Part shown: positions 26,601 through 49,835 of the stretch, piece after piece
Layout: each line of letters starts with the position of its first letter
How positions within the stretch are numbered: position 1 is the stretch's first letter
Source: Lysinibacillus sp. JNUCC-52
GTDB lineage: Bacteria; Bacillota; Bacilli; Bacillales_A; Planococcaceae
Reading direction: 5' to 3'
DNA length: 64,000 nt
NCBI RefSeq assembly: GCF_015999545.1
Contig: NZ_CP065546.1
Location: 2,099,501-2,163,500 of the forward strand
Program-made: the position numbers and the translations under genes
The notes under the pieces: generated by a model
Databases searched by the model: none
Seen by the model: only the letters and a program-made list of their open reading frames with translations
What the model was told of the DNA's origin: nothing

Positions 26601-26716
26601 TGATCACTTGTTTCAATATCAGAAAAGCTTGCTGCGCTTGCTACTGGTACGATTGCTGATGCTACTAGAGCTGCTGATGCTGCGCCGACAACCCATTTGC
26701 TATATTTTTGTTTCAT
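23669..26716 (-). CDS. S-layer protein with N-terminal SLH domains
   Basis: Surface-lattice protein of 1015 residues. It has a signal peptide (cleavage near VASAASF, about 28), three SLH domains to about residue 205 (KIVGGYTDGTFKPNAVVTRG, KDAGVFKGSNNKLMYTNN, ALEYAGLTNVKAFNPKNSLTRG), then beta-rich Ig-like repeats to the end, with several BIG2-like DQYG segments. The start used is the ATG with AGGAGG nine bases ahead; 23 upstream codons are unsupported. Its SLH part is clearly homologous to, but much diverged from, the invertible S-layer pair at 39.6-49.4 kb. It is probably expressed from its own promoter and carries its own strong terminator. Confidence 0.92.
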   Translation of the reverse strand: MKQKYSKWVVGAASAALVASAIVPVASAASFSDIETSDHKDAILALAEAKIVGGYTDGTFKPNAVVTRGNVAKFLGKWLISEGYEIPADYKTEARFTDLPTSAPDQELLQYAALVKDAGVFKGSNNKLMYTNNMNREQMAVVLVRAINTVYNVDLVADYKESDFKSAITDLDKATATENREAIIALEYAGLTNVKAFNPKNSLTRGQFASFLHRTITKVGEAALTVKEAKVVDATTLEVTLSDDTKHTVKLETPLEENKETKVEFEIEGKTYSAVVTYEVTEVKLEAVKAVNAKTIEVQFNKAVEDTTKAKVELLRGTFKQNVTLVWSEDKKSVQLVGATNFQAADYTVNVAGLTENVLTSTVKIEAQKVTSIEVLDEVAVVDKAVKADGTFDAGTTATVGYVVKDQYGTDITKTTSLKTNDNANTTVVADSAKGVIKLSGAVVEGKKIGDIVPVVLFDAATGTSVSKTVKLSAESTVSSIEVAGVYNAKGEELALNDSSKASDAYIVLNLKDQYGKEITDASKATGLVITNTNTTNLTIANTVTKVKIGDKDKLVVALSSILKAGDTDVLLISTTNGQTAKYTVKVAETSTTNAISVSQPEIAVAEESTLIPLTVTDKEGNVITNKKVLADANKGIKVGGTTVAESALEVKDGQVYYKTTFNTAGTQALVFQTSTYKVATITVDVKAKAVPTVVRGLKTPLVISTSKSPVTITAKDHLIIEDQYGREMKNSAEPVTVTLVGTSDVVSVAGNQVTALKNGTATLNVALTTPNGTIDSAVEVKVQVTDGTEYNGYEIAEIGKTKVATAKDITVNGLLNGGKVALADSEYTATVQGGKITSPTAVTGGKVTIADTDLNTDSATPANKIDTEFTLKVTINATGQVLEQKFVVSADTEKTQDFFFTASETTADYNLAKAITEATLVSGSTVANLKSTDDTPAVVNVATVDQYGNKAITALAADTVTIVPEKVTDVKIAANGTAAATATLNADVKEAKVTLKIKVGNATKELKVTIVAAP

Positions 26717-34476: not shown

Positions 34477-37400
34477 TTAATTCACCATTTGAAGAGCTGT
34501 TTTTTTACCATAAATCGTTTCTACCCATTCCGGGTGGTCGATAAATGGATTGCGATTACCTTGCACCTCGTAGATTCTGTCGTTTCTTCGCTTTTCATAG
34601 TCATCTACAGGATCTTGTTGATGCCATTGTAAAAGGATTGAAAGTTTACCGTGATAAGGTGCTGTCCCATTGTTAACTTTTTCATTTAATTCAAGGTCAA
34701 CTCTATCGCCTGACTCATAACGCGTTGCCATATAAAATAAGATGCGTGCTACATCCCCTTTTACATTATTAGGCGGCTCGAATGAATCTGAGTCTTTCAA
34801 GCAACCATTACAGCCTGAGACTGGACTACCACCATTGTCAAAGTCTAAATTTCCTCTGGCACTATTCACTTGTACATCAGTTGGTCGTAAATGATGGATA
34901 TCTGTTCCTGGTCCATTGCTTGTACCGAAATTGCCATGTGATTTTGCCCACGTATGTTCTCGATTCCAGTTCCCTACATTGCCACCGTTATTTGTTTTCG
35001 GGCTTGATTTGCCAGAGTAAAATAACAGTACATTATTGACATTATTCGGGTCTTCATCCGTATATCTTAATGCATCCCAAGCATCGTCATATGACAGTAC
35101 TTTTTGATTGGAGATAATATCGTGAAGCGCCTTTTTTAATGCTAGCCCTTCTTTGTCGTATGCAGATGCATAGTAGTCATTACCCGTTACTGTAACACTA
35201 ACACTAAAGTTAGTAGTAACACTTTTCTTACCGTCGGATGCCGTAACACCCACAATATGACTACCCGCTTCTAAATTTAGCGTTAATATGTTGCCATTTA
35301 TCGACCCTTTTGTAGCAGTAAATGTTAGTTTGTCATTATCAGGATCTGCGAAATGTTCCGTTAAATCAATTGTAATTGCTGTGCCTACAGCTACTGTCTT
35401 ATTTGCAATAGGGCTTTTAACGATTGGTTGCTTGTTTTCAAAAGGTACAATGATGTCCCCTTTTGAGTTCGTGAATTTTATGCTCTCTAACGTTGCACCT
35501 TTCGTTAGTTCAATCAATTTAAAGTCGATATTGTCCGCGCCTCGAATTTCGCTAACATTTTTACCTTCAATTGTAATCTTTTTAAACGTATTGCCTTTTA
35601 AATCTACAATAGAACCTGGATGATTTGGCGTAATGATTACATCCGTCGTTTTAAAGCCTTCACCATGAAGCTCTACATACTTCCCTTTAAGATGTACGCC
35701 TTTTGTAATATGTGACGCAGCATCTAAATGCAATGCCACACTAGGCTTTGTAATGTTTAAAATGTTTTTCTTAAAGTTCTCATAGTAATAAGTGATTTCA
35801 GGCACAATCGGCTCCACAGTTGAACCTTTTTTCAAGTCCACTTGCACCATAACAGGATCATGGTCACTTGCACGGCCTGCCATATCTGTAAAGTCGGCAT
35901 TAATATGAAGAATATCAATCAACGTTTTGTCTTTCAGATTATTAGAAACTAAAATATGGTCTAATACTTGCGAATTCCCTTGATATAAATATGTGTAACG
36001 ATCCGCGTCTTCTGCTTTATTAATCATATTTGTCATCAATTCACCCTCATGAATTTTAAGAGGTGCAGCAAATTGATAGTCGTTAAAATCACCTAATGAT
36101 ACAACGTTTGCATCTGGATTTTTTGTTTTAATATCATTCACAAAGCCATAGACAATATTGGCGATTTTTTGACGTTGCACTTCACTTTTATATTGCGGCG
36201 GTTGAATTGATCCGAATAACGGCGTGTCACCTGATTTAGAATTCCAGTGGTTGGCAATCACGATGACATCTGCACCTTGGAATTCAAATTGTGCAGCTAA
36301 CGGTTTTCTACTATTATTAAATGCTTCATTTGTCGGGTCAATTCGACCTGGGTTTAGCGTTAATTGACCGTCTTGATAACCAACGGCAGTTGTTGCATCC
36401 CCTGCTGGGCTACCTTCCTTCAAGTTCACTCTTGCTGGATTGTAAAGGAAACCAACACGAATATTAGCGTTAGGTGCTCCACCATCTGCATTATTCACCG
36501 GGTCAATATTGACAAACTTATATTCAACACCACTTGCCGCTTTAATGGCATCAATTAAACGTTGATAGCTTTGATCTGCCTTTGAATCACCAGCAGATTC
36601 ACCATTATTATCTTGTACTTCCGTTACCCCAACGATGTCTGGTGTTTGCATATCAATAGCTATTGCTCGCGCTAATTTACGCGCTTTCTCATCGGTTGTA
36701 GACGTTTTGTTATTAGAGAAGTTTTCTAAGTTATACGATGCAATTGTTACCTTATCTTCTGCTTTAACAATTTTTGTTGTCTCAGGTGTTGCCGAACCTT
36801 TTACATGTGCTTGCTTCATCTGATCTAATGGCACATAAATCTTAAAGTTTTGATAGGAGTAGCCAACGATACCTGTAATCGGTCCATTAAACTTATCGCC
36901 TGTTGCCACTTCAAAATCACGAGCCGTTCCGTTCGGTTCTAATCTAAATTGGATACGATTCGGGTTTGTTTTCCCTTCTTCATATAAAACGCCACCATGA
37001 AGGGTGTTCGTTGGTTCACTTTCAAGAACCGTTACTAAATCTCCATGTTCTTGTGGACCGACAGCTTTAACATTGCCCACTTCCACGCGCATGCCTTCAA
37101 TACTTTCCCAGAAATCAATGGCATCAATGGTTGGGTTGAAAACTTGCAGATTATCACTGTCAATTTGGCTAAATGACATTTTTAATTTATCAATTTGAAT
37201 GGCTTTTGGTAGGGCTACACTACTTTTTAGCACTTCTACTTTGCCACCTTGGTCATTTCGTACATTGATTTGCGTTGTTTTTAAATCGGTTTGGTTGGCA
37301 TCACTATAGCCATCGTACGCATATTCATCAACTTTACCTTTGACCGATACTAAATTCCCTACTTGAATTGGCCAAGCATTTTTCCCACTATAAAGTAAAA

Positions 37401-39237
37401 TACCTTCCGATGTATTCGGATTATTATCTGCCAATTCATCAGGCGTTTGAATCGTATAATAATAACTACCATTTAAAGAAAATGAATACGTTACGATCCC
37501 TTCAATGCCCTCAATAGTTTTACCAGCATATGGTGAAGCATGCCCTTCTCCTTGAATATCATGGATTTGCAATGCATCGGTAATGTTATAGTCATAGGTC
37601 ATCACTTCACTAAACGTGCCATCACTAGCTTTCACAACTGTTTTTAATGTTGTATTTGCCGTAATGTCGATTGGCGTTGTGTATTTCGTACCTCCTACAG
37701 TCGGATCACTACCATCTACTGTGAAATAGATTTCACCATTTGCTGTAGATGTCGATAAAGTAACAGTCGTTTTACCAACGAATGTTCCACTACCAGGAGA
37801 TGCGATTGCTGGTTTTAATGCTGTACTATCCACGACAATATCATTAACAGAACGCGGAATCACTTGGTAATCATTATCGAACTGTTGGACAATGCCTGTT
37901 ATCGATTCATAGGTTGTGCCTGCTGTTAAACCAAGCGTAGCTGTTTCATCTCGTACTAAGAAATTGCTGCCATCACTCGCAGTGAAGTTTGCCCAGCCGC
38001 TTCCTGTTTGAGCGTTCGTCAGCGTCACATTTTTTACCGTAACGAGTTGCGATTCATTTGCTTCTCCGACCTCTGCACCTGTTACGACTTTTGCAGTTGG
38101 CGCACCAACACCTGCCACTTTATCGATGATTTGGGCTGCGTCTAATTGCAGTAATCCTCGATAATCCGCTAATTTACCTTTAAGCGTTACTTCGTCGCCA
38201 ATTTCCACATTGAGGCTAGATGGACGTACGGCAATACCCCCTGTTCCATCCTGCACCGAAATCGTATTTTTCAGCTTCCCTGCTACGATACCTTTGATTG
38301 TTACTGTTGTACCGTTCGCTTCTGTTCTTGCATTAGCGATAGATAGCACATCTGCTTGTCCACTAACTGTGTAACTATATGTTTGGACATCGCTATTTTC
38401 TAGTCCATCCGCTACTGCAATTGCTTTTAGCGTCGTTGTTTTATCAATGATAATTGGTTGCGAATAAACCGCGCTTTCCACAGTGGGCTCCGTACCATCC
38501 GTTGTGTAATAAATCGTTGCGCCTTCCGTTGCTGAAGCTAATGCAATTGCAGTACCAGTCGCAACCGTTCCAGAAGGTGTAGAAGCTGTTACTGCTTCTG
38601 CCTTTGTAATAGGTCCTACTTCTCCGCCATCCATTGAATGACTACCTAAATGATCAAATGTATCGATTGGATATTGCTGCCATTCTAATGAAGGATCAAA
38701 TACATCACTTGGATTGATGTCACCAGAAGTAACTGCACTCTTTCTGACCAATGTTTTATCAACAGTTGACACACCGTTTACATCCCATGCTTTCCCTGGA
38801 TCGAAGCCCATTTGACCAAAGGAATCAATAACCTCTTCGCCCTTTTTCAGCACAATCGCATCATTGCCGTTGAACGAAGTAACCGCTGATGGCAGTCCAC
38901 CTTTATCTTTTATTGCTGCCACGGCACTAGAATTATAGATAATGATCGTGTCATTATGTGCTAAAGTTCCGCTTAACGTCTGTTTGTTCGTAGGAGTAGT
39001 CCCACCGTTTGTATAAAGTTCAAGTTTATATTGGCTTAAATCAATCGTTGAACCCGTTCCATTATAAAGTTCAATCGCCTTATTATTACTCGACCCTTCA
39101 ATATATTCAGAGATAATCAAATCAGCTGCTGGTCCGGCAGCGACAGCTTGAGCAGGCATTACTGGAATCGATACACTAGCAACTAAAGTTGACGCTAGTA
39201 AAGCATTTAAAGACTTGTTCCATTTCTTTTTAGACAT
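34477..39237 (-). CDS. Secreted multidomain protein with EEP nuclease and endonuclease I domains
   Basis: A 1586-residue exported protein. After a signal peptide (cleavage near PAQAVAAG) comes a lamin-tail domain (LIISEYIEGSSNNKAIELYN, about 38-190), a chitobiase-like beta repeat (GATIYYTTDGTEPT), OB-fold segments, a second such repeat, and more OB-like sequence. An endonuclease/exonuclease/phosphatase domain follows (about 860-1170: VTIASYNLENFSN, GVTEVQDNNG, VIANHWNSK, SLGDFNDYQ, ASDHDPV). A cadherin-like stretch leads to a C-terminal endonuclease I domain (about 1385-1570: NREHTWAKSHG, DIHHLRPTD). It resembles YhcR/ExeM-type extracellular nucleases but carries two unrelated nuclease folds. 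No SLH or sortase anchor is seen. Nutrient scavenging from DNA or biofilm DNA remodelling is likely. Confidence 0.9.
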   Translation of the reverse strand: MSKKKWNKSLNALLASTLVASVSIPVMPAQAVAAGPAADLIISEYIEGSSNNKAIELYNGTGSTIDLSQYKLELYTNGGTTPTNKQTLSGTLAHNDTIIIYNSSAVAAIKDKGGLPSAVTSFNGNDAIVLKKGEEVIDSFGQMGFDPGKAWDVNGVSTVDKTLVRKSAVTSGDINPSDVFDPSLEWQQYPIDTFDHLGSHSMDGGEVGPITKAEAVTASTPSGTVATGTAIALASATEGATIYYTTDGTEPTVESAVYSQPIIIDKTTTLKAIAVADGLENSDVQTYSYTVSGQADVLSIANARTEANGTTVTIKGIVAGKLKNTISVQDGTGGIAVRPSSLNVEIGDEVTLKGKLADYRGLLQLDAAQIIDKVAGVGAPTAKVVTGAEVGEANESQLVTVKNVTLTNAQTGSGWANFTASDGSNFLVRDETATLGLTAGTTYESITGIVQQFDNDYQVIPRSVNDIVVDSTALKPAIASPGSGTFVGKTTVTLSTSTANGEIYFTVDGSDPTVGGTKYTTPIDITANTTLKTVVKASDGTFSEVMTYDYNITDALQIHDIQGEGHASPYAGKTIEGIEGIVTYSFSLNGSYYYTIQTPDELADNNPNTSEGILLYSGKNAWPIQVGNLVSVKGKVDEYAYDGYSDANQTDLKTTQINVRNDQGGKVEVLKSSVALPKAIQIDKLKMSFSQIDSDNLQVFNPTIDAIDFWESIEGMRVEVGNVKAVGPQEHGDLVTVLESEPTNTLHGGVLYEEGKTNPNRIQFRLEPNGTARDFEVATGDKFNGPITGIVGYSYQNFKIYVPLDQMKQAHVKGSATPETTKIVKAEDKVTIASYNLENFSNNKTSTTDEKARKLARAIAIDMQTPDIVGVTEVQDNNGESAGDSKADQSYQRLIDAIKAASGVEYKFVNIDPVNNADGGAPNANIRVGFLYNPARVNLKEGSPAGDATTAVGYQDGQLTLNPGRIDPTNEAFNNSRKPLAAQFEFQGADVIVIANHWNSKSGDTPLFGSIQPPQYKSEVQRQKIANIVYGFVNDIKTKNPDANVVSLGDFNDYQFAAPLKIHEGELMTNMINKAEDADRYTYLYQGNSQVLDHILVSNNLKDKTLIDILHINADFTDMAGRASDHDPVMVQVDLKKGSTVEPIVPEITYYYENFKKNILNITKPSVALHLDAASHITKGVHLKGKYVELHGEGFKTTDVIITPNHPGSIVDLKGNTFKKITIEGKNVSEIRGADNIDFKLIELTKGATLESIKFTNSKGDIIVPFENKQPIVKSPIANKTVAVGTAITIDLTEHFADPDNDKLTFTATKGSINGNILTLNLEAGSHIVGVTASDGKKSVTTNFSVSVTVTGNDYYASAYDKEGLALKKALHDIISNQKVLSYDDAWDALRYTDEDPNNVNNVLLFYSGKSSPKTNNGGNVGNWNREHTWAKSHGNFGTSNGPGTDIHHLRPTDVQVNSARGNLDFDNGGSPVSGCNGCLKDSDSFEPPNNVKGDVARILFYMATRYESGDRVDLELNEKVNNGTAPYHGKLSILLQWHQQDPVDDYEKRRNDRIYEVQGNRNPFIDHPEWVETIYGKKTALQMVN

Positions 39238-39420
39238 TGTCGTTTAGCTCCTCTTTAAGTATTTGCTTAAATCAAGACCAACTTCTTATCGAAGTAAGTC
39301 TACTATCTCCCTATCTCGACTTTCGGTTTGAACCTACACCGCAAGCGGCTTTCATCACATACTGCGTTCCATCAATAATAGTAAAACTATTTTTTCCACA
39401 GTACATGTATATGAAACCAT

Positions 39421-39458
39421 AATAGTGTTAATACACTATTTACGTAATGTAAATTATA
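39421..39458 (-). promoter_or_regulatory. Candidate promoter -10 and operator dyad of the nuclease gene
   Basis: A TATAAT lies on the minus strand at 39453-39458. Just downstream, AATAGTGT-TAAT-ACACTATT (39421-39440) forms an 8-base inverted repeat where a repressor could block transcription. No good -35 is seen. Confidence 0.35.
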
Positions 39459-39570
39459 CTATTTATAGAAATCTATTACTAAATTAATATAGTTGCCGGA
39501 AGGCTATGGAAAGCAATTTGAGAGAAAAGGACGAAATTATTGTCCGCTGCGGCGGGCCTTTCCGCTCAGC

Positions 39571-39621
39571 ATAGTAAGCCATAAGCCTCGCTGTCGCGAG
39601 GCTTGTGGCTTACTATTTTTG
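39571..39621 (+). terminator. Strong terminator insulating the silent S-layer cassette
   Basis: Twenty-base arms (39571-39590 and 39597-39616) pair with a single G-T type mismatch, extended by an inner C-G pair, and run into TTTTT. It points toward the silent cassette, which begins 30 bases later, and lies just outside the invertible segment, so it stays in place after inversion. Confidence 0.85.
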
Positions 39622-39649
39622 CATTGTGAGCAGGAGTCACCCCACCCTC

Positions 39650-40549
39650 ATTCGTAGCGACGGCAGCAACGGCTACATTAGTAGCATCTGCTATCGTACC
39701 AGTGGCTTCTGCAGCAGGATTTACAGATGTAGCAGGAAACGACCACGAAGTAGCAATCAATGCACTATCTGATGCAGGTATCATCAATGGATACGCTGAC
39801 GGCTCATTCAAACCAAACCAAACAATTAACCGCGGTCAAGTGGTTAAATTATTAGGTCGTTATTTAGAAGCACAAGGCCAAGAAATTCCAGCTGACTGGA
39901 ATACAAAACAACGCTTCAACGATCTACCAACATCAGCTGAAGCTGAATTAGTAAAATATGCTGCACTTGCGAAAGATGCAGGCGTATTCGCTGGTTCAAA
40001 TGGTAACTTAAACCATACACAAACTATGCAACGTCAACAAATGGCAGTAGTTTTAGTACGTGCTATTAAAGAAATCGCTGGCGTAGACTTAGTTGCTGAC
40101 TACAAAAAAGCTGGTTTCGTAACTGAAATCTCTGACCTAGAAAAAGCTTACTCTGCTGAACAACGCAATGCGATCGTTGCTTTAGAATACGCTGGTATCA
40201 CTAACGTATCTAACTTCAACCCAGGTAACAGCGTAACTCGCGGACAATTCGCTTCATTCTTATACCGCACAATCGAGAACGTTATCAACGCTCCAGTTGC
40301 AGGTGTAAAAGACATTAAAGCTGTTAACAACACAACTGTTGAAGTAACATTTGACGAAGAAGTTGATAACGTACAAGCTTTACACTTCTTAATCTCTGAT
40401 CTAGAAGTGAAATCTGCTGCTGTTAAACAAACGAACAAAAAAGTAGTTGTATTAACTACTGCAGCTCAAACAGCTGACAAAGAGTACACTGTATCTCTTG
40501 GCGAAGATAAAATCGGTTCATTCAAAGGGATTGCTGCGGTTGTGCCTAC
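39650..40549 (+). repeat. Left 900-bp inverted repeat (SLH coding part of the silent cassette)
   Basis: Position i here matches the complement of position 88995-i at the right copy. No insertion or deletion separates them, and every stretch compared was the same; translations are identical over 300 codons. Identity ends sharply at both sides (39649 and 40550 differ). Confidence 0.93.
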
Positions 40550-42974
40550 GAAAGTGGAATTTGTAGAACAATCAATTCAAGGTAAACTTGGTCAACAACT
40601 AACACTTAAAGCGCAAGTGACAGTTCCAGAAGGTCAAACTAAAGCGGGTATTCCTGTGACTTTCTTCATCCCTGGTTCTACGAACGGTGTGAAAACTCCA
40701 GTAACAGCTGAGGCTGTTACAGATGAAAACGGAGTTGCTTCTTACACTTATACTCGTTACGCAGCAACAAACGACACTGTAACTGTTTATACAAGCGGTG
40801 ATCGTTCTAAATTCTCAACTGGTTATGTATTCTGGGGTGTTGAAACAATTCTAACAATTGAAGAAGTAACGACTGGTTCTTCCATCAACAACGGCGCGAA
40901 TAAAACTTACAAAGTAACTTACAAACACCCGGAAACTGGTAGACCAGTATCAGGTAAAGTATTAAACGTATCAGTTAAAGAAAATATTGACGTTACGGTT
41001 GATAAATTACAAAACGTTACAGTTAATGGTGTAGCTGTAGTTCAAACTAGTGATAACAACACAAGAGCTGCACAAGTTACAACTGATTCTAAAGGTGAAG
41101 CTACATTCACTGTTTCAGGTTCTAATGCTGAAGTAACGCCAGTCGTATTTGAAGCGACTCCTGTAACAGTGACTAACCCAAATGGTACAGTTACAACAAC
41201 TGGTTACGATCAAAAATACACTGCAGATACATTACAAGCATCTGCTGCGAAATTAACATTCGGTGCTATTCAAGCTGCTTACTCAATTGAAGTAACTCGT
41301 GATGGTGGCGAAGTGGCAGCTACTGGTGTAATGAACGGTCGTAAATATAACATAGTAGTGAAAGATAAAGATGGTAAAGTGGCAGCTAACGAAATTGTTA
41401 ACGTTGCATTTAACGAAGATATTGACGGGGTAATCTCTACCGTTACTTCTGCACAATTCGTAAAAATCGAAAACGGCAAACAAGTTTACGATGGGAAAAA
41501 AATCACTGTTAGAACAAACGCAAAAGGTGAAGCAAGCTTTGTCATCGCAAGTGATACTGTAAACTCTTATGCTACGCCAATCGTTTGGATTGACATTAAT
41601 AACCAAAGTGGTAAAGATGCAAACTTAGATAAAGGTGAACCTTCAGCAGTTGCACCAATTTCATACTTCCAAGCACCATTTTTAGATGGTTCAAAGTTAG
41701 TTTCTTACAAAGGTGCTACTCAAACTGACAAATTTGTTAGTGGGGAAACTGCAACATTTAAAGTACAACTTACAAACCAAAGTGGTAAAGTAGTACCGAA
41801 TTCTGGTTACACAACGAAAGATGTTACGTACACTGTTTACAACACTGGTGCAAATAATGTAAAGGTTGGCGATGTTGAAATCGCTCCAAATCGCGTGCAT
41901 ACATTAGTTGCTCCAAGCGGTGAAATCAACGTTACTACTGTAGATGGTAAATCTTCTTCTGTAAAAGTTCTTGCTACTGGTGTAGCTAAAGAAACGAACG
42001 GTAACAAAGAATTTGCATTCACTTCAAAAGAAGCAACTGCAACATTCACTTCTTCAAAAGAAGTAACGAACCTATTTACTGGTGATATTCATTCATTCGA
42101 TACAGAAAAAGAAACTGTCGTATTTACAGATGGTTCCGTTCTAAAAGATGCTGTGAAATATGCTGGTGAAACGGATAAAAAATATGAATACAGAAATATA
42201 AATCGTGCACCACTTTCTAAAGATGAGTTTGTAAACATTCTTAAAGGGGCAATTACAGGGGTAAAAGTAACTTATGAAGTGAAAGATAATACGGTAATAT
42301 TCAATGTTATTTCTGTAAATGCTGGTGGGTCTAAGCCTATAGATACTGCTGGAGGAAAAGCAAATGACACTACTTCTGTTACAACGGCAAAAGGAAAAAT
42401 TTCTGTAGCTCCTGCTTTAGCCACAGTTGGTGCTACTGATGCTGCTGAAACAAAACTTGAAGCTGTAAAAGCACATGTAACAAAAGAAGTGAATGATACT
42501 TCAGTAAATGTAACTGTAGTAGAATCTTCTACAACAGGAACTTATACGGTTACGTTATCTAAAGGAGCAAGTACAGATACAGTAATTGTGACACCACAAT
42601 TTGGTCAAAAATTAACTGCTGCTCATATCACTTCATCAATTGCAGTGAACAGCAACAGTAAAGATTTAGATCTTACAATAATGTCTACACTTGCTGGTTT
42701 CACAATTGCTAATATAAATCCAGATGCTCAAGATGCTCTTGATATTACTACAGGTTATAACAATAATGTAATTACTATTTCTAAAACATCTGGTGGTACT
42801 ACTAAAGGTTCTGATAGCACAGCTTCTACTGAAGACCCTGCTAATATGAAGAATAGAACTTTAAAGATTCACTTTGAAGCTCAAGCTACTGATTATATTA
42901 AAGAGAAGTTCACAGCAACTATTATAATTGATGATAAGGGTAACCGTACTACAAAAGTTGAGGTAGCTACTTGA
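39651..42974 (+). CDS. Silent S-layer gene cassette (no promoter, RBS or start codon)
   Basis: An open frame of 1107 codons that begins in mid-gene with FVATAATATLV, codon 11 of the expressed homologue. The in-frame sequence upstream reaches a TGA at 39627 without a start codon. The earliest start-like codon (GTG at 39702) is internal to the signal peptide and has no ribosome site. Residues to about 300 (signal remainder and three SLH domains) are identical to the expressed gene. The following roughly 800 residues are a diverged variable region (opening KVEFVEQSIQGKLGQQL; the two still share TVPEGQ, GIPVTF and EVTTG). It would encode an 1117-residue S-layer protein once fused to the ten missing codons. 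It has its own terminator. Confidence 0.88.
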   Translation, partial: FVATAATATLVASAIVPVASAAGFTDVAGNDHEVAINALSDAGIINGYADGSFKPNQTINRGQVVKLLGRYLEAQGQEIPADWNTKQRFNDLPTSAEAELVKYAALAKDAGVFAGSNGNLNHTQTMQRQQMAVVLVRAIKEIAGVDLVADYKKAGFVTEISDLEKAYSAEQRNAIVALEYAGITNVSNFNPGNSVTRGQFASFLYRTIENVINAPVAGVKDIKAVNNTTVEVTFDEEVDNVQALHFLISDLEVKSAAVKQTNKKVVVLTTAAQTADKEYTVSLGEDKIGSFKGIAAVVPTKVEFVEQSIQGKLGQQLTLKAQVTVPEGQTKAGIPVTFFIPGSTNGVKTPVTAEAVTDENGVASYTYTRYAATNDTVTVYTSGDRSKFSTGYVFWGVETILTIEEVTTGSSINNGANKTYKVTYKHPETGRPVSGKVLNVSVKENIDVTVDKLQNVTVNGVAVVQTSDNNTRAAQVTTDSKGEATFTVSGSNAEVTPVVFEATPVTVTNPNGTVTTTGYDQKYTADTLQASAAKLTFGAIQAAYSIEVTRDGGEVAATGVMNGRKYNIVVKDKDGKVAANEIVNVAFNEDIDGVISTVTSAQFVKIENGKQVYDGKKITVRTNAKGEASFVIASDTVNSYATPIVWIDINNQSGKDANLDKGEPSAVAPISYFQAPFLDGSKLVSYKGATQTDKFVSGETATFKVQLTNQSGKVVPNSGYTTKDVTYTVYNTGANNVKVGDVEIAPNRVHTLVAPSGEINVTTVDGKSSSVKVLATGVAKETNGNKEFAFTSKEATATFTSSKEVTNLFTGDIHSFDTEKETVVFTDGSVLKDAVKYAGETDKKYEYRNINRAPLSKDEFVNILKGAITGVKVTYEVKDNTVIFNVISVNAGGSKPIDTAGGKANDTTSVTTAKGKISVAPALATVGATDAAETKLEAVKAHVTKEVNDTSVNVTVVESSTTGTYTVTLSKGASTDTVIVTPQFGQKLTAAHITSSIAVNSNSKDLDLTIMSTLAGFTIANINPDAQDALDITTGYNNNVITISKTSGGTTKGSDSTASTEDPANMKNRTLKIHFEAQATDYIKEKFTATIIIDDKGNRTTKVEVAT

Positions 42975-43035
42975 TAAAATAAAAAAAGAATAGTCACTTC
43001 ATTGGCTGACTAGTTCAATGTAATAAGTGAGAATG

Positions 43036-43078
43036 AAAACCCATGTCTTGTGTTTAGCAATACATTGGGTTTTCTTTC
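43036..43078 (+). terminator. Terminator of the silent S-layer cassette
   Basis: AAAACCCATGT pairs with ACATTGGGTTTT (one bulge) and is followed by CTTTCT. It moves with the cassette on inversion. Confidence 0.7.
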
Positions 43079-43247
43079 TAAATACAAATCTTAAATAAAG
43101 TAAATTTTTCAATACAGTGAAATTCTAATAACATATCAATTTATCTTCTGTTCCCTCGCAATATGTTGCATAGTTCCAACATTCATTTTTTATAGAAGTT
43201 GTAACAAAGGGAAGATAATTTTAATTCGAAGGGAAAGAAGTGAAATA

Positions 43248-44087
43248 ATGGGGACAAAACAAGGACAAGCCATTGCGCTAGGTAATCGCTTAAAAAGGCT
43301 ACGCCATAAGCATCACTTAACGATTGCTGGGTTAGCTGATTTATTAGGCATTTCGCATAGTTATGTAGGTTTTATTGAAAATGGTTCAAGAAATGCATCT
43401 GAAAAAGTATTGAAAAAGTATGCGGATTTTTTTCAAGTGTCATATGCAGAATTAGCTGAATTACAATTACAACTAGAATACCCTACGCAAATAGAAAATC
43501 CTCTTACATTAACAGATGAGATGATGGAATTAAATAGTTTATTAATGAAATTAAATGAGGATTTTCGATCTTCAATTATAGAGGACTTTAAGGAGCAAAT
43601 ACAACAGACACTATATAATCTTCTAACGCCATACACTATTGCGGATATAAAAAAATACATTACGAAAATAAAAAATGATTGGTTTTCTGAATGTGAGGAA
43701 CCGCTGACAGAAATAAAAAACTACAAGGGCTATATTGCCTTATCGAGTGAGCAATTATATTTTGAATTATATGTAGAGCACAGTGTATTACATGTTCTGC
43801 TACTATATTGCGATAGAAAACAACGAACACTTTTTGAAAATTGGTTAGGTGATTGTTCCATCTCTTATCAGACTGAGGAAAATTTACAGCACATTAGCGA
43901 ACCTCAGAAAATATTAAATATACTATGGTTAAGTCCCAATATGTCCTATCGACAACAATATCAATATTTAGTAACAAAAGAGCTACTTTCTTTGGAGTTA
44001 AACTATTTTGATGCAAAACTAAATTGGTTTGTTCATAATTACGATAAGCATAATGCAATGCAAGACATACAAGAAAACATTAGCTAA
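43248..44087 (+). CDS. XRE-family helix-turn-helix regulator inside the invertible segment
   Basis: A 279-residue protein with an N-terminal XRE DNA-binding domain (about 10-68: LGNRLKRLRHKHHLTIAGLA, LLGISHSYVGFIENGSRN). The 200-residue C-terminal region has no match I recognise; it is acidic and helical at first, then mixed. The stop codon overlaps the ribosome site of the recombinase gene, so the two form an operon. A role in controlling the recombinase or the direction of switching, as with recombination directionality factors, is inferred from position. The ATG has an AAGGGAAAGAAG site. Confidence 0.85.
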   Translation: MGTKQGQAIALGNRLKRLRHKHHLTIAGLADLLGISHSYVGFIENGSRNASEKVLKKYADFFQVSYAELAELQLQLEYPTQIENPLTLTDEMMELNSLLMKLNEDFRSSIIEDFKEQIQQTLYNLLTPYTIADIKKYITKIKNDWFSECEEPLTEIKNYKGYIALSSEQLYFELYVEHSVLHVLLLYCDRKQRTLFENWLGDCSISYQTEENLQHISEPQKILNILWLSPNMSYRQQYQYLVTKELLSLELNYFDAKLNWFVHNYDKHNAMQDIQENIS

Positions 44088-44102
44088 GGAGCTGAAATCT
44101 CT

Positions 44103-44993
44103 TTGATTTTCCATTCAGACTTTGATTTACCTAAATACTTAAAAAAGTTTCTTCAACATCTAAAAAGAAAGTACTATTCAGAAGAAACCATTATTGGCTA
44201 TGAAAATGATATAAAAAAATTCTCATCATTTATTTACCAATTATATGATGGTCAAATCTTAACAGATGAAATATCGAAAGATGACATCTTAGAATATCTA
44301 GATTTTTTAGGTAACCAAGATTATAAACCTAACTCTATTAATCGGTATTTTTACGGTTTAAAGGCATTTTTCAAGTATCTTGTTATCGAGTTGGACTTTA
44401 AAGTCGACCCAACAATCGGTATCTCTACTCGAAATGTTTACGTCCCTTTACCCGAAATATTAGATATAGATGAAATGGCATTAGTATTGTCTACAGCCAA
44501 AGAATACTCTGAGTTTTACCATGTATTAATCAGCTTGCTATATTATACCGGTTCAAGAATAACAGCTGCTCGAACGTTGTTAAAGGAAAATGTAGATATA
44601 AAAAATAATAAAATATACTTCCCACGGATTAAAGGCGGAAGAGATTTGCATTTACCATTACATCCTAAATTGCATCAAATATTGATAGATTATTTACACA
44701 ATACCAAAGACAATGGATCAGACTATTTATTTCCATCTCCCGTAAGCCGGAACATGCCAATAAGCGGCGTAGAAATTCGTATCAAATTGAAAAGGATCGG
44801 GTCACAATGCAATATTACAAAACGTTTAACTCCACATGTTATCCGTCACTGTACCGCAACTCATTTAACACTACTCGGTGTAGACCAACATTATATTGCT
44901 ACTTTGCTTGGACATACTGACTCTCGCTCCACTGCACGTTATCAACATTTGAAAGTAGATGATTTGAGATCAGCTATGAAAAAGTTGAAATGA
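44103..44993 (+). CDS. Tyrosine recombinase (XerC/D-like), candidate S-layer invertase
   Basis: Site-specific recombinase of 296 residues. A SAM-like core-binding domain (about 10-100) precedes the catalytic domain. All six catalytic residues are visible: R152 (TGSRIT), K178 (IKGGRD), H245 and R248 (HVIRH), H271 (LLGHTD) and the nucleophile Y280 (TARYQHL). The start is TTG with AAGGAG eleven bases upstream, overlapping the preceding stop codon. Length and motifs fit XerC/XerD and phase-variation recombinases such as those of Clostridioides difficile. Its position midway between two inverted S-layer gene copies makes it the prime candidate for switching them. Chromosomal XerC/XerD genes normally sit elsewhere, so this is probably a dedicated enzyme. 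Confidence 0.92.
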   Translation: MIFHSDFDLPKYLKKFLQHLKRKYYSEETIIGYENDIKKFSSFIYQLYDGQILTDEISKDDILEYLDFLGNQDYKPNSINRYFYGLKAFFKYLVIELDFKVDPTIGISTRNVYVPLPEILDIDEMALVLSTAKEYSEFYHVLISLLYYTGSRITAARTLLKENVDIKNNKIYFPRIKGGRDLHLPLHPKLHQILIDYLHNTKDNGSDYLFPSPVSRNMPISGVEIRIKLKRIGSQCNITKRLTPHVIRHCTATHLTLLGVDQHYIATLLGHTDSRSTARYQHLKVDDLRSAMKKLK

Positions 44994-45053
44994 GAATAAA
45001 ACAGCGAATATTTATTCAAATATAACAATAAATATAACAGAATCAAAGCTTAG

Positions 45054-45760
45054 AAACCCACCAGTAAAACTGGTGGGTTTGACAACGCGTAAAACGCTAG
45101 CTTACTACCTCATGTCTCACGACATTCTGAAAGGTCCGCCAACCGAATGCTTTTTTCTGCTTCCAGTTATTTTATTCACAATTAAAAGGGTCAACGATAT
45201 CATTCATTGACATTTGATCATAGTGTATATCTTCTTGTAATTGTCTTTTGATATACCGATGAATCATATTTCGATTTCGAGCGACTGTATCCACTAAGTA
45301 TCCTCGACACCAAAATTGACGATTGCCCAATTGGTTCTTTACACTAACATATCGGTCGAAAATCATGACGCTACTTTTTCCTTTTAAATAGCCCATGAAT
45401 GCTGAAACACTTAGTTTCGGAGGAATTTTCACAAACATATAAATATGATCCGGGCACGCTGCTGCTTCAACAATTTCTACACCTTTTCTTTCACATAACT
45501 GCCGTAGTATTCTTCCTATTTCCGCTTTGATTTGACGATAAAATTCTTGTCTTCTATATTTCGGTACGAAGACGATATGATACTTACAATTCCATGTTGT
45601 ATGTGCTAAATTTTTACTATCCATTAAGACTCCTTTCGTACAAAGTCGGTTGACTAGACCTGATTTTATTGTACGATTGGAGTTTTTTTTTTGTCTATAG
45701 GTAAAAGTTTTTGGGAACTCCCTGCATAGCAAGGCTTTTAAAGCAGAAAAACTCTACCGA
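45054..45760 (-). mobile_element. IS200/IS605-family element, probably inactive
   Basis: A single Y1 transposase gene flanked by hairpins. At the left is a perfect 12-base-arm stem (AAACCCACCAGT / ACTGGTGGGTTT) at 45054-45080; at the right, the palindrome GGGAGTTCCC and GC-rich motifs near 45715-45735. These elements have no terminal inverted repeats, so the ends given are approximate. No TnpB or omega-RNA gene is present. The transposase has lost one HUH histidine, so the element is likely dead. Confidence 0.6.
45172..45624 (-). CDS. tnpA: IS200/IS605 transposase (TnpA) with altered HUH motif
   Basis: Y1 HUH-type transposase of 150 residues that would act on single-stranded DNA. Family motifs include NCKYHIVFVPKYRR at the N-terminus, PPKLSVSAFMGYLKGKSS in the middle, RQFWCRGYLVDTV and the tyrosine-bearing helix near IHRYIKRQL. 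Where active relatives have H-U-H (usually HVHM or HIHL), this protein reads HIYM, so the second metal-binding His is Tyr. The rest appears intact. The start is the ATG with an AAAGGAG site; 36 upstream codons in frame belong to the left end. It interrupts the space between the recombinase and the expressed S-layer gene. Confidence 0.88.
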   Translation of the reverse strand: MDSKNLAHTTWNCKYHIVFVPKYRRQEFYRQIKAEIGRILRQLCERKGVEIVEAAACPDHIYMFVKIPPKLSVSAFMGYLKGKSSVMIFDRYVSVKNQLGNRQFWCRGYLVDTVARNRNMIHRYIKRQLQEDIHYDQMSMNDIVDPFNCE

Positions 45761-45786
45761 GATTAAATCTCGATAGAGTTTTTTTA
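45749..45786. terminator. Terminator of the expressed S-layer gene
   Basis: Arms AACTCTAYCGAGATT with A and T runs on both sides, about 100 bases past the S-layer stop codon. It can work in both directions. Confidence 0.85.
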
Positions 45787-45882
45787 ATACTTAACTTGAA
45801 TATGAAAGAAATTAAGTGGCAACAAAAGCATCACCATTTCCATATACTGTACCAAACAAATTAGTTAAACTTATATACCTTA

Positions 45883-48800
45883 TTAATTAACTAATTTAAC
45901 AACCCATGCAGAAGTATTTGTATCCCAAGATACATTTACTTTTACATCTTTTCCGATGTACTCACCTGCATCTGCACCTGTTACTGTTAAAGTAGCTGCA
46001 AAAGTATAAACTCCTGTTTTTACAGACGTAAGATCAACAGCATCACCATTGTCATCAACAACAGTTAATTTAATAGTGTTTGTAGAAATTGCTCCTGTAA
46101 CTGCATCAGTTGCAATTGTAGATGCAATATTAGTTAAAGCACTTAAATTAACAGAATTTCCTCCTACAGTATTTGTAGTTTCTGTAAATGTTACAGTTAA
46201 TTCATTATTATCAGTACCAGCTTGAGCTACCGCTACAGAAACAGTTGGAGCAGCTTTTGCTACTAATTTAGCAATTGCAGCATTAATTGCATCTGCCTTA
46301 ACATTCTTTTGGTTAACAGTTCCTTCTGCTAAACCAAGTGCTGTATTTAACGCTGTCCAAGTAGATGCTTTATAATCAGCTTCTTTTTTACCTTTAGCTG
46401 TATCTACTGCATCTGCTAATTTTTTCGTTGCTGCTGCTTCAGCTGCTTGTTCAGAAGAAATAGTTACCAGTTGATTGATTGCTGCAGCGATAGCTGCTGT
46501 TTTTGCTTGAACTTCAGTTACATTAGTTTCAGGTAATGCATCAGCAGTTGTTTTAGCTGATGTATAAGCTGCCCATGAAGCTGCTGTATAAAGAGCTTGG
46601 TTTAATGCAGCTGCTTCATTCTTTTTAGCTGCTAATGCTGCTTTAGCTTCATCTAATAACTCAGCTGCAGTTTTATCAACAGATAAGCTGATAATATTAA
46701 ATTTGTAAGTGCCATCAGTTTGCTTTGTAACTGTTACTTGAGCTTTTTTACCTGCTACAACAGATTTTAAAGCTGCTACAAATTGTGTTTTGTTAATCGG
46801 TTGATTTAATTCATTATAATATGAACCATTATCATAGCTAATTGCATTGTAGCTATCAATTGTAATTTTTTCAGAAGCTTCATTAATAGCTGTTACATAA
46901 CCTGTATGAATAGATGGAATTTCTAGGCTTGATGCAAAGCTTAAAGAAGCAGTTTGGTTTGGTAAGCTTACTTGAGAAGCAGAAGCTTGAACAGATACGC
47001 TAGATGTAACGTGCATTGAAGTAACGTTAAGTACTGCTTTACCTGCTACTGAGTTAACTTTTACAGTTTCAGTTGTACCAGCTTTAACTGTTTTTCCTAC
47101 AAGTCCATTACCAGAAACTACAACGTCTGCAAATTGAGCAGTTACTTGGTAAGCTACTTCGTATAAACCAGTACCTGCATAGTAATCAAATCCGTTTTGA
47201 TCAACTGATTGATATTCGAAGTATGCAGTTTCTGAACTTGGTAAAGTAGTTACTTCTTTACCGCTAGCATTAACAACAGATAATTTAGCGTTTGCAATTA
47301 CTGCATCTACGAAGTAAGTAGTTTCACCTACAGTTTGTAAGTCCGCTTTATCTAATCCAACTTCTTTACCGTTTTCTAAGTAAACTGTTGGAGCAGCAAA
47401 TGCATCACGTACGCCCTCTAATTTAAATTTCGCTTCGCCTTTAGAACCTGTAACTTCAATTTCAAAGCGAGTGTTTTTGTTTACAGCAGCATTACGTTTG
47501 CCATCTGCACTGAAGATTGTAACAGCTTTATCTGTGCTGTAGCTTCCATCAGCAAATGTTACATAAGCTTTAGTTCCAGCTGGAGCAACTTTACCATCTT
47601 TGTCAGTAACAGTTACAGTGTACTCACGTCCACCATCACCAGTACCTTTGTTGTTTAGGTTAGCAACGTTTTTAGCAGCAGCATTTTGAACACCTTCAGC
47701 TTTAACAGTTAAACCTAATGTATGGTTTAGTGCGAATTTAACAGTTGGAGCAGATGCTTGTAAAGCAGTGTTTGTGTATTTACCAACTTTATTAGTAGAT
47801 TCGTCTACGAATACGATTGGAGTAACAGAAGCATTAGAACCAGTTAAAGTGAATGTTGCTTCACCATTGCTGTTAACTTTTACTTTTACTACATTTACGC
47901 CACCAGTTGTTACTTGAGATGGGTAATCAGCATTTCCTACAACACCAGTATCAATAACTTTAACGTCACGAACTAGTTTATCAGGAGATACGTCAACGTT
48001 TTCTGCAAATGCTACGTTTACATAGTTGTAATCAACTGTGTTTGATGTGCCAACATATTGCGTGTTGTATGCATCAGTTTTGATTTTGTAAACTTTTTTA
48101 GAGCCATTTGCTAATTCGTTACCAGTTGTAACTTCAGTAATAGATAGACCTTCAGCCCAATATACTTTACCAGAAGCATATACAGATGATCTGTCAGTAG
48201 CATAAGCAGTTACACTGTCGTTATGTTTGTAGTAACGAGTGTATGAATAAGTAGCAACACCATCAGCGTTTGTGTAAGCAACTTTTTCAATTTTTTCATT
48301 TAATTGGTTGTTTGTGCTGTTAGCGATGTTGAAAGTTACTGGAATACCTTCTTTAGATTGACCTTCTGGTACAGTAACTTCAGCTTTTAACGTTACTTCT
48401 TTACCAACTGTACCTTGTACAGATGGAGTTGTAAGTTTGATAGCTGTAGGCACAACCGCAGCAATCCCTTTGAATGAACCGATTTTATCTTCGCCAAGAG
48501 ATACAGTGTACTCTTTGTCAGCTGTTTGAGCTGCAGTAGTTAATACAACTACTTTTTTGTTCGTTTGTTTAACAGCAGCAGATTTCACTTCTAGATCAGA
48601 GATTAAGAAGTGTAAAGCTTGTACGTTATCAACTTCTTCGTCAAATGTTACTTCAACAGTTGTGTTGTTAACAGCTTTAATGTCTTTTACACCTGCAACT
48701 GGAGCGTTGATAACGTTCTCGATTGTGCGGTATAAGAATGAAGCGAATTGTCCGCGAGTTACGCTGTTACCTGGGTTGAAGTTAGATACGTTAGTGATAC

Positions 48801-49374
48801 CAGCGTATTCTAAAGCAACGATCGCATTGCGTTGTTCAGCAGAGTAAGCTTTTTCTAGGTCAGAGATTTCAGTTACGAAACCAGCTTTTTTGTAGTCAGC
48901 AACTAAGTCTACGCCAGCGATTTCTTTAATAGCACGTACTAAAACTACTGCCATTTGTTGACGTTGCATAGTTTGTGTATGGTTTAAGTTACCATTTGAA
49001 CCAGCGAATACGCCTGCATCTTTCGCAAGTGCAGCATATTTTACTAATTCAGCTTCAGCTGATGTTGGTAGATCGTTGAAGCGTTGTTTTGTATTCCAGT
49101 CAGCTGGAATTTCTTGGCCTTGTGCTTCTAAATAACGACCTAATAATTTAACCACTTGACCGCGGTTAATTGTTTGGTTTGGTTTGAATGAGCCGTCAGC
49201 GTATCCATTGATGATACCTGCATCAGATAGTGCATTGATTGCTACTTCGTGGTCGTTTCCTGCTACATCTGTAAATCCTGCTGCAGAAGCCACTGGTACG
49301 ATAGCAGATGCTACTAATGTAGCCGTTGCTGCCGTCGCTACGAATTTTTTGTATTTCTTTGGTTGGTTAGCCAT
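45883..49374 (-). CDS. Expressed S-layer protein of the invertible pair
   Basis: Surface-lattice protein of 1163 residues. A signal peptide (MANQPKKYKK then hydrophobic core, cleavage near VASAAGF, about 32) leads into three SLH domains (about 33-210: AGIINGYADGSFKPNQTINRG, KDAGVFAGSNGNLNHTQ, ALEYAGITNVSNFNPGNSVTRG). Ig-like beta repeats follow, then a helical FIVAR-like stretch (AELLDEAKAALAAKKNEAAAL, about 945-1065) and a final beta domain. Codons 11-310 are identical to the silent cassette; the rest is diverged. It has a sigma-A promoter, a 5' hairpin and an AGAGGAGG site ten bases before the ATG. Its SLH domains would bind the wall polymer made by the genes just upstream. Confidence 0.93.
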   Translation of the reverse strand: MANQPKKYKKFVATAATATLVASAIVPVASAAGFTDVAGNDHEVAINALSDAGIINGYADGSFKPNQTINRGQVVKLLGRYLEAQGQEIPADWNTKQRFNDLPTSAEAELVKYAALAKDAGVFAGSNGNLNHTQTMQRQQMAVVLVRAIKEIAGVDLVADYKKAGFVTEISDLEKAYSAEQRNAIVALEYAGITNVSNFNPGNSVTRGQFASFLYRTIENVINAPVAGVKDIKAVNNTTVEVTFDEEVDNVQALHFLISDLEVKSAAVKQTNKKVVVLTTAAQTADKEYTVSLGEDKIGSFKGIAAVVPTAIKLTTPSVQGTVGKEVTLKAEVTVPEGQSKEGIPVTFNIANSTNNQLNEKIEKVAYTNADGVATYSYTRYYKHNDSVTAYATDRSSVYASGKVYWAEGLSITEVTTGNELANGSKKVYKIKTDAYNTQYVGTSNTVDYNYVNVAFAENVDVSPDKLVRDVKVIDTGVVGNADYPSQVTTGGVNVVKVKVNSNGEATFTLTGSNASVTPIVFVDESTNKVGKYTNTALQASAPTVKFALNHTLGLTVKAEGVQNAAAKNVANLNNKGTGDGGREYTVTVTDKDGKVAPAGTKAYVTFADGSYSTDKAVTIFSADGKRNAAVNKNTRFEIEVTGSKGEAKFKLEGVRDAFAAPTVYLENGKEVGLDKADLQTVGETTYFVDAVIANAKLSVVNASGKEVTTLPSSETAYFEYQSVDQNGFDYYAGTGLYEVAYQVTAQFADVVVSGNGLVGKTVKAGTTETVKVNSVAGKAVLNVTSMHVTSSVSVQASASQVSLPNQTASLSFASSLEIPSIHTGYVTAINEASEKITIDSYNAISYDNGSYYNELNQPINKTQFVAALKSVVAGKKAQVTVTKQTDGTYKFNIISLSVDKTAAELLDEAKAALAAKKNEAAALNQALYTAASWAAYTSAKTTADALPETNVTEVQAKTAAIAAAINQLVTISSEQAAEAAATKKLADAVDTAKGKKEADYKASTWTALNTALGLAEGTVNQKNVKADAINAAIAKLVAKAAPTVSVAVAQAGTDNNELTVTFTETTNTVGGNSVNLSALTNIASTIATDAVTGAISTNTIKLTVVDDNGDAVDLTSVKTGVYTFAATLTVTGADAGEYIGKDVKVNVSWDTNTSAWVVKLVN
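48446..49345 (-). repeat. Right 900-bp inverted repeat (SLH coding part of the expressed gene)
   Basis: Inverted counterpart of 39650-40549, starting at codon 11 and ending at codon 310. The next base on each side differs between copies. Confidence 0.93.
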
Positions 49375-49412
49375 AGAAAAATTTCCTCCTCTAAGTTCAA
49401 AAATTATGTCTC

Positions 49413-49432
49413 TACTACATAGTTATGTAGTA
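49413..49432. promoter_or_regulatory. 5' leader hairpin of the expressed S-layer gene
   Basis: Nine-base arms TACTACATA / TATGTAGTA with a two-base centre lie between the transcription start and the ribosome site. It may protect the mRNA or bind a regulator. Confidence 0.5.
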
Positions 49433-49452
49433 AATAAACAACTACACATAAA

Positions 49453-49481
49453 AGTATAGTTGCATCCCTAAAAGTTGTCAA
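49453..49481 (-). promoter_or_regulatory. Sigma-A promoter of the expressed S-layer gene
   Basis: TTGACA and TATACT are separated by exactly 17 bases on the minus strand, giving a leader of about 70 bases. It lies outside the inverted repeat and therefore stays fixed when the segment inverts. Confidence 0.85.
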
Positions 49482-49484
49482 TCA

Positions 49485-49835
49485 TATTTTGGGAAAATTA
49501 CTAATTGGTTTCCGGAAAATAGTGGACATCGAACTCTCTTTTACCATTGTCGGCTATCTGACGCTTTTTTTCAAGTGAAAATATGCAACTTTTCCAACAA
49601 AATCTAATTTTCTACCATTCTATTGTTCATATTTTCTAGAATGATCTAAAATAATGGATAATTAAGTTAAATGATAATACGAAAAAAGCTCAAGCATATA
49701 AATGCTTGAGCTTTTTTCGCTTGGGCTACCAACCGTTGTTTCCTTGCAGGGAATTCTATTATTTCATAGAGGAAATTCCTATACACCTACAGTCTAACAC
49801 TTTCAATTTAAAACGACAATACCAATTTTTAAAAA
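49485..49835. other. Intergenic region upstream of the S-layer promoter
   Basis: No gene is recognised. It contains the terminator of the TagA-type gene; the remainder is AT-rich. Confidence 0.4.
49681..49718. terminator. Terminator of the UDP-ManNAc dehydrogenase/TagA operon
   Basis: A perfect stem AAGCTCAAGCAT / ATGCTTGAGCTT with A6 and T6 runs. Confidence 0.9.

Follow-up and report, generated by a model that had tools for sequence, protein, structure and literature searches.

Why should a genome keep two S-layer genes that face each other, carry the same stretch of coding sequence as a perfect inverted repeat and have a promoter at one copy only? This question is raised by the DNA of Lysinibacillus sp. 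JNUCC-52 analysed here (64,000 nucleotides, hereafter the window, to which plain coordinates refer). The earlier note had described an inward-facing S-layer gene pair with a codon-aligned 900-bp inverted repeat, and this is borne out: the arms are perfect and in frame. The features of the locus are as follows.

39572..39615, plus strand: terminator-like hairpin (stem of 20 bp), directed into the left copy
39650..40549, plus strand: left arm of the inverted repeat, corresponding to codons ~11-310 of the S-layer gene
39651..42974, plus strand: promoterless S-layer cassette (apparently sllB-like), codon 11 to stop, open frame with SLH domain
43035..43081, plus strand: terminator-like hairpin typical of the left position
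43248..44087, plus strand: HTH DNA-binding protein, encoded next to and upstream of the recombinase
44103..44993, plus strand: XerC/D-like tyrosine recombinase, by domain and structure matches
45172..45732, minus strand: IS200/IS605-family Y1 transposase, between the arms
45883..49374, minus strand: S-layer gene with promoter, complete, 1,163 aa
48446..49345, minus strand: right arm of the inverted repeat, 100% complementary to the left arm
49345..49374, minus strand: codons 1-10 of the right gene, the last base common with the arm
49453..49481, minus strand: near-consensus promoter TTGACA-17-TATACT (11/12 match), serving the right copy

The arms (39650-40549, plus strand, and 48446-49345, minus strand) are 900 nt each and separated by 7,896 nt, with an outer span of 9,696 bp. 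Within the one-contig genome of 4.68 Mb the arm sequence occurs at full length in these two places, and one paralogue of 69% identity was found in addition. A third S-layer-like N-terminal region is located at 26070-26683 on the minus strand; its DNA is 69% identical to the arm. Beside the left arm (34477-39237) lies the gene for a protein of 1,586 aa that combines an endonuclease/exonuclease/phosphatase part with an Endonuclease I part.

Inspection of promoter, RBS and reading frame confirms that these signals, the start and codons 1-10 belong to the right copy only. An RBS (AGGAGG) is found upstream of its ATG, and only the first 29 nt of the gene are not part of the arm, whose first base is the third base of codon 10. 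The identical promoter sequence precedes the right copies of three related genomes (G026, G027 and G029 in our numbering). The outer region of the right copy has its closest relative in an S-layer gene of G011 (67%), the N-terminal part of which is only 40% like that of the window, while the window's own N-terminal part matches that of G026 at 94-96%. In the alignment the right copy diverges from those of G026 and G027 at about the arm end. Such a seemingly chimeric gene fits an expression site with a replaceable outer part.

The left frame contains no stop from codon 11 (39651) to 42974, and its earliest ATG, GTG or TTG at 39702 comes too late for a signal peptide. Promoter matches near its start (39200-39900) amount to two weak ones versus 1.8 expected by chance. 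Together with the hairpin pointing inward this agrees with the earlier description of a left copy that begins at codon 11 and lacks expression signals of its own. The locus hence combines one promoter with an inverted silent gene that has a common 5' coding region, the feature of an invertible S-layer switch. The promoter of the right copy is absent before all four left copies (window, G026, G027, G029), and their left edges differ: codon 11 in the window, about codon 133 in G027 and G029, and just after the -10 element in G026. There (locus L035, ~6309) the left-copy homology starts near the expected transcription start of the right copy; this edge would be consistent with a promoter deletion as well as with a copy derived from RNA. 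Of three published sllB sequencing primers two fit the left copy alone with one mismatch each (minus strand 5-6 at best) and the third fits both arms exactly. Judged by these three short primers, not by the full sllB sequence, the left copy of the window is probably sllB-like.

The module was detected in 5 of 32 genomes of the genus, and the arms are resolved in four of them (window, G026, G027, G029); in the fifth, G013, the contig ends inside both arms. G026, G027 and G029 share the layout nuclease gene, left copy, HTH gene, recombinase, right copy, WecG gene. A scan of genome contigs gave one locus, L. mangiferihumi NZ_PYWM01000061, which is uninformative on orientation because its contig ends inside both arms. 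The recombinase is present at 92-100% in 5 of the 32 genomes (own included), weak matches within the genus being those among the matches listed. At the level of the family it was found in 9 of 261 genomes at E ≤ 1e-40, those apart from the genus modules being G256 (73%) and three at 41-44%; the search at order level (261 genomes) returned the same nine. The HTH gene adjoins the recombinase in G026, G027, G029, G013 and G256. Between the arms of G026 (L035, 12969-14864) an orphan frame of 631 aa weakly matches a pectate-lyase-like adhesive domain.

Do the two copies exchange sequence? Within a species they are 98-100% identical in 50-bp alignment windows over ~0.9 kb (window genome), ~1.0 kb (G027), 1.1 kb (G026) and 1.2 kb (G029, one alignment window 92%). 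Past the arms identity drops, sharply in the window genome and more gently in G027, where later alignment windows show 80-96% for more than 1 kb. Between species the same stretch of the right copies is 66-100% identical per 50-bp window, the window genome versus G027 going down to 66%. In a tree of the arms (480 nt) the left copy pairs with the right copy of the same species in four out of four cases, G029 with moderate support (92/87). The tree of the bodies shows no species pairing: the left copies of the window, G026 and G027 group together with the right copies of G027 and G029, and the right copies of the window and of G026 stand elsewhere. No fork of this body tree is strongly supported, and the window's right copy sits on a very long branch. 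Both trees were calculated without G022, which offers no arm anchor, and without G013. An unexchanged pair as old as the module should show the divergence seen between species, and we therefore infer that the arms recombined in each lineage. By alignment and tree the arms evidently evolve in concert, being near-identical within species and different between species in all four cases.

The left bodies are open frames throughout and dN/dS is low. The six pairs of four left copies gave 0.225, 0.260, 0.255, 0.265, 0.247 and 0.274, in a set from which the left copy of G029 (another body type) was excluded and in which the HTH-adjacent copy of G013 was taken as left copy. Towards the C-terminus the ratio climbs to ~0.4-0.6. 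Neutral simulation of the window's 807 codons resulted in a mean of 4.1 to 14.9 stops at 0.05 to 0.2 changes per site. Selection needs expression, and the left copies of the window, G027 and G029 have no start with a signal peptide, which makes selection in place unlikely. In part, the signal in the left bodies may stem from earlier periods in which a copy was expressed. That the two genes recombined through their arms, as the earlier note had assumed, is supported by this purifying selection as well as by the near-identity within all four species.

A further trace is found at the 3' end. The exact pattern of the left-type terminator occurs in 5 of 32 genomes, all of them module bearers, with no exact match in the other 27; the pattern was derived from the same five genomes and searched without mismatches, such that looser forms are possible elsewhere. 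The left-type hairpin is located behind the HTH-adjacent copy in the window, G027, G029 and G013. In G026 it stands behind the right copy, the HTH-recombinase pair is still beside the left one, and the left hairpin has diverged. Taken together, the near-identity of the arms, the asymmetry of the promoter and the terminator of G026 lead us to conclude that silent cassette and expression site recombine.

We favour, at a probability of roughly 0.6, a system of silent cassette and expression site in which the arms serve both inversion and gene conversion. The right copy would be the expression site with promoter, signal peptide and anchor domains. The left copy would be a linked silent cassette that has the same anchor region, different outer ~800 residues and no promoter. 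Recombination between the two would proceed through homologous stretches of the anchor region. If reciprocal, a crossover of the inverted arms would flip the 9.7-kb segment, and the outer region silent until then would come to stand, in frame, downstream of the sole promoter; non-reciprocal exchange (gene conversion) would copy sequence between the copies, resulting in identical arms and in cassettes moved over time. With 900 bp of perfect inverted identity inversion would be expected, and general homologous recombination would suffice for such a length.

A single crossover of the inverted arms would flip the whole interior, whereby the HTH-recombinase pair keeps its cassette and changes side. 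The comparison of orientation in related genomes, proposed as a check in the earlier note, gave the same result four times: the pair is on the left and in the same orientation in all resolved genomes, one per species, which free flipping would produce in 1/8 of cases. The opposite orientation was not observed among these four, a weak test with one genome per species. The wording for strains JG-A12 and NCTC 9602 fits the same order (PMC3573754, in the text available). The terminator at the right and the recombinase on the left of G026 require copying or more than one exchange. The interpretation in the earlier note is supported as far as recombination through the arms is concerned, whereas inversion of the 9.7-kb segment stays a prediction: the single orientation speaks against it and G026 goes beyond a single inversion. 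We infer that the segment may nonetheless invert in living populations, that the coat would change as a result and that the HTH-recombinase pair may drive or help the process. S-type bodies in both positions across species were considered as proof of left-right exchange and dropped as weak evidence, since an S-like body (64% and 69%) is also present in G022 and G024, in the single or main gene; this includes G029, where the more S-like body (73%) is at the promoter and the less alike one (64%) beside the recombinase.

Alternatively, the locus could be a dedicated site-specific inverton, which we regard as unlikely: the tyrosine recombinase would cut a short site in both arms, flips would be frequent and populations would carry mixed coats. 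An XerC/D-like recombinase with an HTH partner does lie between the inverted genes and is conserved at 92-96% in the four other module genomes. It matches solved XerA and XerD, and the alignment to XerA keeps R, HxxR, GH and, near the end, Y, which we take to be the catalytic residues. By sequence the recombinase looks intact. Second copies of the S-layer N-terminus (at least 84%) occur in 4 of 32 genomes, each a recombinase bearer, the fifth bearer G013 being broken in the arms; more distant paralogues of the N-terminus are present in many of the 32. Moreover there is a parallel with the pneumococcal hsdS locus, where a tyrosine recombinase gene likewise accompanies linked copies with inverted repeats and one inversion needs PsrA, though hsdS concerns the specificity subunit of a restriction system and the PsrA-dependent repeat measures 15 bp (all according to the accessible part of PMC4948785). 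However, a short-site recombinase has no need of 900-bp identity, the orientation is the same in all four resolved genomes, and in G026 the left-type 3' end stands at the right position with the recombinase still on the left. A scan of nucleotide variation, comparing right copies of the four recombinase-bearing genomes with single or main genes of 11 others, brought up no clear candidate for a recombination site inside the arms. The 30-base blocks invariant in the four (alignment codons 61-80, 141-150 and 291-300, as well as 201-210, which is half gap) are undiagnostic, because four sequences of a probably highly expressed gene cannot separate codon bias from a site.

It is decidedly improbable that the arrangement is a relic, in which an S-layer copy arrived with, or was duplicated by, a mobile element, passive gene conversion keeps the arms alike and the left copy has no function. 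An IS200 transposase is indeed present, and the locus was originally described as carrying an insertion element (PMC3573754, as far as the text is available). The G027 locus contains no match to this transposase, which is therefore probably not core to the module. In G022 and G023 the S-layer gene adjoins the same nuclease gene without any module; the gap between the two holds no frame of at least 150 aa matching HTH, recombinase or S-layer seeds, and this arrangement is likely the empty state of the locus. Against a functionless copy stand the open left bodies and their purifying selection across species, which is unlikely to have acted in place in the window, G027 and G029 for want of a signal-peptide start. 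It is hardly credible, finally, that the left copy is expressed where it lies, using a start of its own: G026 retains RBS and ATG on its left copy and the scan for unrelated promoters covers the window's left copy only, but the window offers no start before a signal peptide, promoter matches at chance level and an inward terminator-like hairpin, and the G026 copy begins just after the -10 element.

How does the favoured system of silent cassette and expression site relate to known loci? Pollmann et al. (2005) reportedly described the slfA/sllA and slfB/sllB loci of Bacillus sphaericus NCTC 9602 and JG-A12. Their work is cited as a reference in the accessible part of PMC4902306. For both strains an S-layer gene is followed by an element with transposase, integrase and HTH and then by an S-layer-like copy (available text of PMC3573754). 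The same genes are all present in that order in the window, G026 and G029, and the window's left copy is apparently sllB-like by primer match. The passages on the sll copies in PMC3573754 make no mention of inverted orientation, perfect arms, concerted evolution or a switch. Hence the claim that the layout was undescribed largely fails, as the gene order is in print, and holds for the inverted orientation and the arms as far as those passages go. What is new here is the evidence of repeated exchange between the copies. A silent plasmid copy has been reported for the B. sphaericus system, in the part of that literature accessible here, but has no counterpart in the plasmid records searched: megablast of 39500-49500 against 72,556 of them gave no match, in a collection that may omit records near the window's own genome. 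Switching at this Lysinibacillus-type locus was not found described at the level of titles and abstracts, most subscription papers lying outside the search.

In Campylobacter fetus the sap locus works with one promoter, silent cassettes, a common 5' coding region and DNA inversion; it differs from the present locus by its many cassettes, the Gram-negative host and another protein family. The S-layer protein families also differ between Lactobacillus acidophilus and this locus. In L. acidophilus slpA/slpB, a dominant and a silent S-layer gene, a chromosomal inversion brings the silent one to expression, and the switch was observed (PMC7858073, as far as accessible). The pairing of a dominant with a silent gene is alike at the present locus, where a switch is predicted from genome sequence. 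If our reading is true, the locus would be a Gram-positive, SLH-anchored counterpart of these two switches, and the sll copies would gain a function. The S-layer proteins of these bacteria have applications in nanotechnology and metal binding, and strains are known to differ in them. A coat gene that is switched, or reassembled with the help of a linked silent copy, would be a simple cause for such strain differences and for instability in culture.

A wider role of the HTH-tyrosine recombinase pair, as a dedicated recombinase for S-layer cassettes with which headless outer regions could be carried, captured and exchanged at a promoter site by more than inversion alone, appears rather doubtful. 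It is hinted at by relatives of the recombinase near or beside frames resembling headless S-layer regions in two other genera, and by other tyrosine recombinases in the neighbourhood of headless and main S-layer genes in two genomes of the window's own genus (G024, G012). In G256 (L043, 10372-12106 and 14442-16685) the relative is 73% alike and in G180 (L046, 9959-10819 and 10866-13271) 42%, each near or beside such a long frame. The frames hit no Pfam family at cut-off and gave no blastp match to the S-layer proteins compared, for which reason their identity as headless S-layer regions depends on our own reading.

Two more pairs, in G012 and G024, were chosen for recombinases already seen near S-layer genes, hence no enrichment is claimed. 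In G012 (L090, 5199-6113, 6821-9979 and 15713-19711) a headless S-layer gene and a complete one are inverted relative to each other, and a tyrosine recombinase is encoded outside the pair. This pair was rejected as a second working case: its repeat is not perfect, with 238 bp at 89% and 372 bp at 74%, and close to the beginning of the left copy the reading frame is disrupted by an 8-bp difference. In G024 (L089, 2136-5813 and 15989-18823) a headless second S-layer copy is found in direct orientation, its 5' tract being 84% identical over 1.5 kb. The pair has a 3' flank repeat of 95.6% over 728 bp, and two tyrosine recombinases, 25-27% like that of the window, are located between the copies.
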